Source: Thermosynechococcus vestitus BP-1 | GTDB taxonomy: Bacteria; Cyanobacteriota; Cyanobacteriia; Thermosynechococcales; Thermosynechococcaceae | Assembly (NCBI RefSeq): GCF_000011345.1 | Contig: NC_004113.1 | Location: 744,001-808,000, forward strand | Direction of reading: 5' to 3' | DNA: 64,000 bases | Part shown: positions 16,480 to 58,449 of the stretch, piece after piece | Position numbering within the stretch: the stretch's first letter is position 1 | How the letters are laid out: every line of letters begins with the position of its first letter | Program-made: the position numbers and the translations under genes | The notes under the pieces: generated by a model | What the model was told of the DNA's origin: nothing | Seen by the model: only the letters and a program-made list of their open reading frames with translations | The model's database searches: none

Positions 16480-17301
16480 GTGGATATTATTCTCTGGCTA
16501 CAAGCAGTCATCCTCGGTTTGGTGCAAGGCATGACAGAGTTTTTACCCATTAGCAGTACCGCTCACCTGATTCTCTTTAGTGACCTGTTGGGCTGGAAAA
16601 GCATCTGGCATAAAACGGCCCTAGATGCAATGCAGTTTGGTAGTGTAATTGCGGTTTTGGGATACTTTTGGCAGGATATTCACCAAATTGTCCAAGGGTC
16701 TTGGCAGGCATGGCAGCGGCGGGATTGGCAGCGGGAAGAGTGGAAGCTATTGCTTGGTATTACGGTAGGTACGATTCCCGCATTAGCCGCAGGACTCCTT
16801 CTAAAATTGGCCAAAGTAGAGTTGGATCGGCCTCAGATCATTGCCACGATGGCGATCGCCATGGCGATTCTTTTGGGACTGGCAGAACAATGGGGTTCCC
16901 GTAAACGCACCTATCAAGACATTGGCATTTTAGATGGCTTTCTAGTGGGGTGTGGCCAGATGATTGCCCTGCTGCCGGGAGCTTCACGTTCAGGCTCCAC
17001 CCTAGCCGCAGCTCTAGCTTTGGGACTAGAGCGGCCAACAGCGGCGCGCTTTTCCTTTCTGTTGGGCATTCCTACCCTGACGATCGCCACCCTTGTCCAA
17101 GCTAAAGATGTCTTTGATGAGGGGACGCTGTTGATTCCCCTTGTGATAGCGACACTCTCAAGTATGGTTTTTTCCTATCTGGCGATCGCTTGGCTATTGC
17201 AATTTCTCCAACGCCATTCCACTTGGGTCTTTATCTGGTACCGCATTGGCTTGGGCAGTGCATTGTGGGGGGCGATCGCCCTCGGTAGTCTGCAAAGCTA
17301 A
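16480..17301 (+). CDS. uppP: Undecaprenyl-diphosphatase UppP (BacA family)
   Basis: UppP removes a phosphate from undecaprenyl pyrophosphate, recycling the lipid carrier for peptidoglycan and other envelope polymers. The 273 residues, from a GTG at 16480, form a multi-helix membrane protein of the usual length. Both family signatures are present: GMTEFLPISSTAHL near residue 20, with the catalytic glutamate, and LPGASRSGSTLAAALALG near residue 165, with the essential Ser and Arg. The gene is divergent from the recG operon and lies about 210 bp before sigF. Confidence 0.97.
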   Translation: MDIILWLQAVILGLVQGMTEFLPISSTAHLILFSDLLGWKSIWHKTALDAMQFGSVIAVLGYFWQDIHQIVQGSWQAWQRRDWQREEWKLLLGITVGTIPALAAGLLLKLAKVELDRPQIIATMAIAMAILLGLAEQWGSRKRTYQDIGILDGFLVGCGQMIALLPGASRSGSTLAAALALGLERPTAARFSFLLGIPTLTIATLVQAKDVFDEGTLLIPLVIATLSSMVFSYLAIAWLLQFLQRHSTWVFIWYRIGLGSALWGAIALGSLQS

Positions 17302-17339
17302 GGGACAAGTTTAGCAAATTAGCAAAATTTAACCTTATC

Positions 17340-17355
17340 TGTGGTCAAGATCACA
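17340..17355. promoter_or_regulatory. CRP-like (SyCRP1-type) binding site upstream of sigF
   Basis: The 16 bases TGTGGTCAAGATCACA match the CRP/SyCRP1 consensus TGTGA-N6-TCACA with one mismatch (G for A at position 5). The symmetry extends one base on each side (CTGTG...CACAG). It lies 174 bp before the sigF ATG and 39 bp after the uppP stop. Given the spacing, a factor bound here would more likely act on sigF than on uppP. Assignment to a cAMP receptor is inferred from sequence only. Confidence 0.55.
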
Positions 17356-17513
17356 GGGAAATGAGGGATATCTGAGCATACTAGGTGTGGGATAGTGAAA
17401 GTAGGGAAGCTGCCCAGGGGGCGATCCCTATCCAAGTCAGTCCAGCCAGTCAGATGCACCTGCCTCTGCTGATTTTGTTTTGGCCACAGTAGGGAAACCC
17501 AAGGGTCTATTCT

Positions 17514-18299
17514 ATGTCCAGCACGACAGCCAATACTGACCTAAAGCATTCCACCCTTTCGCTGTTGCAGGCATACCGAGACAACCCTGCCCCCGAATTG
17601 CGGAATCGCCTTGTTGAGTTGAACATAGGATTGGTACGCAAGGAAGCCCATCGCTGGGTACAGTGCACCCAAGAAAGCTTTGACGACCTCATGCAAGTGG
17701 GCACTCTGGGTCTGATTCGCGCCATTGAACGCTTTGACCCAACTAAGGGAGTGGCCTTTAGTTCCTTCGCGATTCCCTATATTCGGGGTGAGATTCAACA
17801 CTACCTGCGGGACAAGAGTCCCCAAATTCGCCTCCCCCGACGTTGGCAAACATTGCAAAGCCAAGGAAAGCGAGTCATTCAGGAATTACGCCAACAACTG
17901 GAGCGCCCCCCCACCGATAGCGAAATTGCCCAAGCCCTCGATGTCCCCCTTGAGGAATGGCAAGCGGCAAAATTTGCCAGCTACCACACCACCCCTGTCA
18001 GCCTTGATGCTCCCACCTTTGAGGGGGAGGAAGAGTCCGTTGCCCTCGGTGACATCCTGCCCGATCAACGGTACCAAAGTTTTCAACTGGCCGAGGAAGA
18101 CCGTATTCGTTTGCAGCAGTGTCTGCGCAAATTGGAAGCTCGCACCTGTCAAATTCTGGAATTTGTCTTTTTGCGTGATTTGAGTCAAAAAGAAACCGCT
18201 GAACTTTTGGGCCTCAGTGCCGTCACGGTCTCTCGGCAGATTAAAAAAGGCCTCCAAGCCCTACAGCAGATGATGCGTCACGACGACGCTGAATCCTGA
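17514..18299 (+). CDS. sigF: Group 3 RNA polymerase sigma factor SigF
   Basis: This sigma factor of 261 residues has region 2 (DLMQVGTLGLIRAIERFDPT and SSFAIPYIRGEIQHYLRD), region 3 (around TDSEIAQALDVPLEEW) and region 4 (LSQKETAELLGLSAVTVSRQ, the -35 binding helix-turn-helix). It lacks the long region 1 of group 1 sigmas and the usual group 2 features, so group 3 fits. In Synechocystis, SigF controls type IV pilus genes and phototactic motility; the same role is inferred here. A CRP-like palindrome lies in its upstream region. ldpA begins about 20 bp downstream. Confidence 0.92.
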   Translation: MSSTTANTDLKHSTLSLLQAYRDNPAPELRNRLVELNIGLVRKEAHRWVQCTQESFDDLMQVGTLGLIRAIERFDPTKGVAFSSFAIPYIRGEIQHYLRDKSPQIRLPRRWQTLQSQGKRVIQELRQQLERPPTDSEIAQALDVPLEEWQAAKFASYHTTPVSLDAPTFEGEEESVALGDILPDQRYQSFQLAEEDRIRLQQCLRKLEARTCQILEFVFLRDLSQKETAELLGLSAVTVSRQIKKGLQALQQMMRHDDAES

Positions 18300-57663: not shown

Positions 57664-58449
57664 TTAGTACCCTTTGGCACTAAAGTCCAGTGTTAGGGGA
57701 ATTTCTACCCGCTCAATGTGGGTTTTAAATGTGCCATTGGGGTATAGCGATAGATGACGAAAACCGGGACCAACGGGTTCAAGGGAAAATTCAGGGGCAC
57801 GGGGCAAAAACTGGATACAGGTGGAGGGACAGCCGAGATACATTACCCCTTGCCGCTCAGTCATCAATTCTTGATGGATGTGACCAAAGAGAACGAGCTT
57901 CACCTGCGGGTGGGAATCTAACACGGCAAAAAGGTCCTCAGGGTTTTGTAGGCGGCTACTATCGAGCCAAGGAGCACCGGTCTCAAAGGGGGGATGGTGC
58001 AGGGCAATGAAGGTGGGGCGATCGCCCGTGTGACTCAAGGTGGCCTCTAGCCAGCTAAGGGTCTCAGGACTCAATTCACCATGAACTTTGCCCTCCACTT
58101 GAGAACTGAGGAGCAGGCCTTGCCAAGTCCCAAGATGGATTTGGCGATCGCCCCGTAGCGGCGGACGCTCAAGGGCCGGCACCATTGCCCTCGGCTCATC
58201 ATGGTTGCCAGGAATCCAATATACGGGACAGCTAAAGTCTCTGAAAGCAGTGGCTAAACGTTCGTAGGTAGGGGTAATGGGTTCCTGTGCTAAGTCTCCC
58301 GTTAGGAGCACGGCATTGGGACTATGGCGACGAGTTGCCTCTAAAACAGCGGCTAGGGATTGAGCCGTAGGCAGGCCAAGGAGTCTGCCTTCATCGGTGG
58401 CAAATAAATGCAGATCGGATAACTGGATGAGGTAAACGGGTTCATTCAT
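57664..58449 (-). CDS. cpdA: Metallophosphoesterase, 3',5'-cyclic AMP phosphodiesterase type
   Basis: The 261 residues carry all the di-metal phosphoesterase motifs in order: QLSDLHLF, TGDLAQEP, PGNHDEPRAM, ALHHPPFETG and LFGHIHQE. This arrangement matches CpdA, which hydrolyses cAMP, although some relatives have other substrates. The ATG at 58449 is clear (MNEPVYLIQLSD). The gene stands about 45 bp after the DMT transporter gene on the same strand. A CRP-like site elsewhere in this window (before sigF) makes a cAMP link worth noting, but it is not evidence of function. Confidence 0.85.
   Translation of the reverse strand: MNEPVYLIQLSDLHLFATDEGRLLGLPTAQSLAAVLEATRRHSPNAVLLTGDLAQEPITPTYERLATAFRDFSCPVYWIPGNHDEPRAMVPALERPPLRGDRQIHLGTWQGLLLSSQVEGKVHGELSPETLSWLEATLSHTGDRPTFIALHHPPFETGAPWLDSSRLQNPEDLFAVLDSHPQVKLVLFGHIHQELMTERQGVMYLGCPSTCIQFLPRAPEFSLEPVGPGFRHLSLYPNGTFKTHIERVEIPLTLDFSAKGY

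Follow-up and report, generated by a model that had tools for sequence, protein, structure and literature searches.

We found a CRP-type palindrome, TGTGGTCAAGATCACA (17340..17355, + strand), in the gap between uppP and sigF of the window (the whole 64,000-nucleotide stretch of Thermosynechococcus vestitus BP-1 DNA that was analysed). It probably serves as operator in a CRP-activated sigF promoter of class II, at which cAMP-CRP would recruit RNA polymerase. The direct link from CRP to sigF proposed in the initial annotation thus gains support from a conserved site, a fixed spacing to a -10-like box, class II geometry, and genes for CRP and class III cyclases in the genome. Type IV pilus phototaxis has already been studied in Thermosynechococcus, and a conserved CRP promoter at sigF would offer a directly testable cAMP-to-SigF cascade in this genus, as well as a case in which the input of one sigma factor has been rewired between lineages.

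The palindrome and the layout of the proposed sigF promoter

The upstream neighbour uppP (BacA family; 16480..17301, + strand; PF02673, 260 bits) lies outside the promoter. The downstream gene sigF (17514..18299, + strand), listed as tlr0738 of BP-1 in a table in PMC2758279, encodes a group 3 sigma factor of 261 aa (NF005644, 406 bits, cut-off 261) with Sigma70 regions 2, 3 and 4. With uppP ending at 17301 and sigF starting at 17514, the gap has the 212 bp given in the initial annotation, which had described a near-consensus operator with dyad symmetry beyond its core. Both descriptions proved accurate: TGTGGTCAAGATCACA differs from TGTGA-N6-TCACA by one mismatch, and the symmetry extends outwards with a single broken pair (C-TGTGGTC-AA-GATCACA-G).

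By itself the palindrome is little evidence, since similar near-palindromes are no commoner in the genome than a control pattern. With up to two mismatches, TGTGA-N6-TCACA had 13 matches in the 64-kb window against 23.7 expected, and with up to one mismatch it occurred at 39 places in the whole genome (one contig of 2,593,857 bp) against 58 for the reversed control. Raw counts of the motif, showing enrichment in neither the window nor the genome, were rejected as evidence; it is position and conservation that make the site convincing.

A -10-like hexamer, CATACT (17377..17382, + strand), lies 21 nt after the palindrome. The hexamer reads CATACT, CATAGT or GATACT in all 12 genomes carrying the site (see below), at a spacing of 21 nt, or 22 nt in genome G024. 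Because this conserved hexamer is read as the -10 box (about -12 to -7), the centre of the palindrome (17347.5) falls at -41.5 from the predicted start in 11 of the 12 genomes and at -42.5 in the other. The sigF transcript would then start at 17389 (+ strand) and have a leader of about 125 nt. There is no -35 hexamer: the 17-nt spacing gives CAGGGA, which matches TTGACA at 1 of 6 positions. Further upstream, an A/T tract, AAAATTTAAC (17324..17333, + strand; about -65 to -56 from the predicted start), has an AA-TTA core that is invariant in 11 genomes and is a possible UP-like contact for the alpha subunit of RNA polymerase.

In E. coli, a centre at -41.5 is the class II CRP position, and an absent -35 element and an upstream A/T tract also belong to this class. 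The proposed sigF promoter resembles the E. coli class II promoters in the spacing from centre to -10 box (the start here being a predicted one) as well as in these two features, but differs from them in its target and its left half-site. PMC2633013 reports that in cyanobacterial CRP promoters the -10 box follows the site at a distance of about 22 bp. When 386 cyanobacterial genomes were searched with the pattern TGTGG-N4-GATCACA-N22-ATACT, there were 5 matches, all at sigF of Thermosynechococcus or of G018, a genome from another genus of the same family, and the controls gave 0. A looser class II pattern had 32 matches in 11 Thermosynechococcus genomes against 4 for the control; the recurrent ones were at sigF, at the promoter of a small RNA, and at one place resembling coding sequence.

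Conservation and linkage to sigF

The initial annotation had suggested scanning orthologous sigF regions, absence of the palindrome counting against a regulatory site; the scan located it in 11/11 genomes of Thermosynechococcus and in a single one from another genus. A family-wide search for SigF yielded 29 genomes, among which the site was found in the 10 Thermosynechococcus genomes with DNA available upstream of sigF (that of the window included) and in G018, whose SigF is 72% identical. The eleventh genome of the genus, G024, has its sigF at the end of a contig and the site on the contig ending with uppP. All 12 genomes have TGTGG-N6-TCACA before sigF, and GTG-N8-CAC is invariant among them. 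In 11 genomes, no other stretch of the intergenic region is as well conserved as the 16-mer, which has 12 of its 16 columns invariant and a mean pairwise identity of 0.89 versus 0.57 for the flanks; flank identity to the window falls to 0.42–0.49 in the three most distant genomes. The site is therefore conserved far beyond chance expectation.

The site also stays with sigF rather than with uppP. At one locus (L112, genome G027) it adjoins sigF although uppP is displaced, and another locus (L113) has no uppP frame upstream and still has the site with sigF. In G027, the DNA splitting uppP from sigF is about 420 bp long and contains palindromic repeat DNA (L112:1067-1486), the CRP-type site being kept at sigF.

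Most other members of the 29-genome family set do not have the site before sigF, so that a site common to the whole family was rejected. Several of them have kept CRP yet lack the site, as in G016, where CRP is 85% identical.

Candidate regulator and alternative readings

The genome contains six matches to the cNMP domain, and four CRP-family regulators were examined (L002, L003, L005 and L006). When L003 (G000:C1:2219816-2220529, minus strand), assigned as CRP, is aligned to E. coli CRP (30% identity over 187 aa), its recognition helix reads ARETVTRVL and its cAMP pocket GEMAPLEEVPRS. Among the CRP-family proteins of the genome, only L003 has both the RETV-x-R helix and the GE...RS cAMP pocket. 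It scores below the NCBIfam equivalog cut-off for CRP (NF008732, 85.6 bits versus 266), a model that looks built on proteobacterial CRP. L005 is NtcA, and L006 resembles PtrA with a score below the cut-off.

The genome also has two class III cyclase genes, one of them with an apparent N-terminal FHA-like region, as in Cya1. The initial annotation had also placed a CpdA-type 3',5'-cAMP phosphodiesterase in the window, and the gene at 57667-58449 (- strand) indeed scores above the cut-off (NF008359, 240.5 bits versus 225); its product is a possible member of the same signalling pathway.

In the mechanism we propose from these sequence features, cAMP-CRP (L003) would bind the site centred at -41.5 and substitute for the absent -35 element, bringing an RNA polymerase that carries a housekeeping-type sigma factor to the -10 box, C/GATACT. 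The SigF then made would act on pilin and motility promoters, as is known in Synechocystis. A second conserved promoter, built like that of sigF and preceding a small RNA, also speaks for CRP. However, the left half is TGTGG in 12/12 genomes and never TGTGA, a non-consensus base that is maintained instead of drifting. Why this half-site is kept does not follow from plain CRP binding; this counts against the proposed mechanism and is its main unexplained feature. The half-site may reflect affinity tuning, or be the sign of a partner or of a different regulator. The family members with CRP but no site before sigF, and the lack of genome-wide enrichment of such sites, also weigh against the mechanism.

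Another protein of the CRP/FNR family, namely NtcA, the PtrA relative or L002 (a second CRP-like protein), alone or with CRP, is an unlikely regulator. All three are encoded in the genome, NtcA promoters use the same -41.5 layout, and a different or mixed dimer could be the reason for the constant non-consensus G of the left half. However, NtcA sites have GTA-N8-TAC, and CRP is favoured over NtcA because GTG-N8-CAC is invariant here. In addition, the motif in NtcA and in the PtrA relative is RVT-x-TR instead of RETV-x-R, and L002 has no CRP recognition motif. These three candidates were thus rejected on a misfit of site motif or recognition helix, although in Synechocystis SyCRP2 was reported to act together with SyCRP1 (PMC7076178).

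It is quite improbable that CRP binds the palindrome but represses, or that it affects a transcript other than sigF. The evidence is sequence, and a site over the -35 region could also block the promoter, but the fixed 21-nt spacing to the -10-like box, the absent -35 hexamer and the upstream A/T tract fit activation. Hardly any weight falls on the palindrome being a product of chance, or an RNA-level feature such as a short hairpin after uppP, that is read by no regulator. Palindromes with one mismatch do turn up in the genome about as often as chance would give, but the strictness of conservation and spacing across 12 genomes nearly excludes this reading; moreover, the site is kept where uppP is displaced or absent, and no terminator-like T-run follows the palindrome.

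Control of sigF in other cyanobacteria and further candidate CRP-type promoters

The parallel with Synechocystis drawn in the initial annotation held in part. There, pili and phototaxis require the cAMP receptor as well as SigF. An influence of SyCRP1 and of SigF on pili and motility is reported (PMC7076178, PMC7690835), but sigF was reported to be autoregulated and transcribed from a SigF-type promoter, TAGGC / GGTAA (PMC2758279). That promoter controls the orthologous gene, yet no TAGGC / GGTAA pair is conserved in the Thermosynechococcus sigF regions, where the best single matches have 2 mismatches, and a SigF-type autoregulatory promoter in the uppP-sigF gap was rejected as not conserved across the genus. 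Since no such conserved promoter was found, the input of sigF seems to have been rewired to cAMP in Thermosynechococcus. Given the autoregulation reported for sigF of Synechocystis, the step from CRP to sigF looks specific to this lineage and not like wiring shared with Synechocystis.

The closest known counterparts are SyCRP1-activated promoters of Synechocystis PCC 6803 (slr1667-slr1668 and slr2015-slr2018), which have a TGTGA-N6-TCACA-like site with the -10 box about 22 bp downstream and, like the sigF site, are linked to type IV pili (PMC2633013, PMC7076178). They differ in that the SyCRP1 targets are pilus-related genes, whereas the target here is a sigma factor gene and the left half is TGTGG. 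A genome-wide prediction by Xu and Su in 2009 (PMC2633013) gave CRP sites in T. elongatus BP-1; sigF is not named in the main text, and the supplementary BP-1 table of 29 sites may list the site. The literature searched contained neither a direct CRP-sigF link nor a start-site map, CRP binding or expression data for sigF.

Outside both genera, 8 of 106 non-redundant sigF upstream regions have a site within one mismatch of TGTGA-N6-TCACA, where 1.2 would be expected and 60 shuffles gave at most 4, and 4 of these 8 sites have a -10-like box at 20–23 nt, against 0.1 expected. At 77 loci, the site density was 0.37 per kb in sigF upstream DNA versus 0.015 per kb elsewhere with both strands counted, a background equal to about 0.03 per kb when double-stranded DNA is taken as the unit. 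Motif discovery by EM in the 106 regions reached a log-likelihood of 119.5 versus 65–111 in 12 shuffled null runs, a result that is no more than suggestive since these runs tend towards degenerate motifs. The site counts suggest a recurrent or ancient CRP-sigF link in cyanobacteria, although they are low and owe something to related sequences. Several of the sites elsewhere have a non-A fifth base (TGTGC, TATGT) at 21–22-nt spacing. CRP-like palindromes 21–22 nt from a TAN3T box were seen upstream of sigF in other lineages at L174, L192, L090, L070 and L207.

We offer only tentatively, and with more doubt than belief, a wider scheme in which cAMP-CRP control of sigF would be recurrent and perhaps ancient, and an upstream half-site of reduced strength (here TGTGG; in other lineages TGTGC or TATGT) would be selectively kept in a class II promoter, giving a response only at high cAMP. 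In this scheme SigF autoregulation would have been replaced in Thermosynechococcus, and CRP would also drive a conserved small RNA.

Upstream of menA (L242:1501-1645; G000:C1:2280905-2281049), a perfect CRP palindrome, TGTGATCATCGTCACA, is followed after 22 nt by CATACT and a structured RNA of about 90–100 nt with a 5' hairpin, a single-stranded AUCAACAGGGAACACACAACG and a terminator with a U run (fold z -4.3). The Thermosynechococcus genomes and G018 share both this promoter and the RNA, and the RNA core was matched in 22 of the 29 family genomes. In Rfam, the sigF region had no match, and the RNA had none at the gathering score and none of note at E 10. It is a candidate cAMP-CRP-activated small RNA. 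Between rnz and a cysteine-desulfurase-like gene of G022 lies TGTGCTGTTGATCACA with CATAGT at 22 nt (L220, site 1501-1544); the site in G025 (L240, 1501-1544) is identical in sequence, and similar matches occur in G019 and G027. This is a possible third class II CRP promoter.
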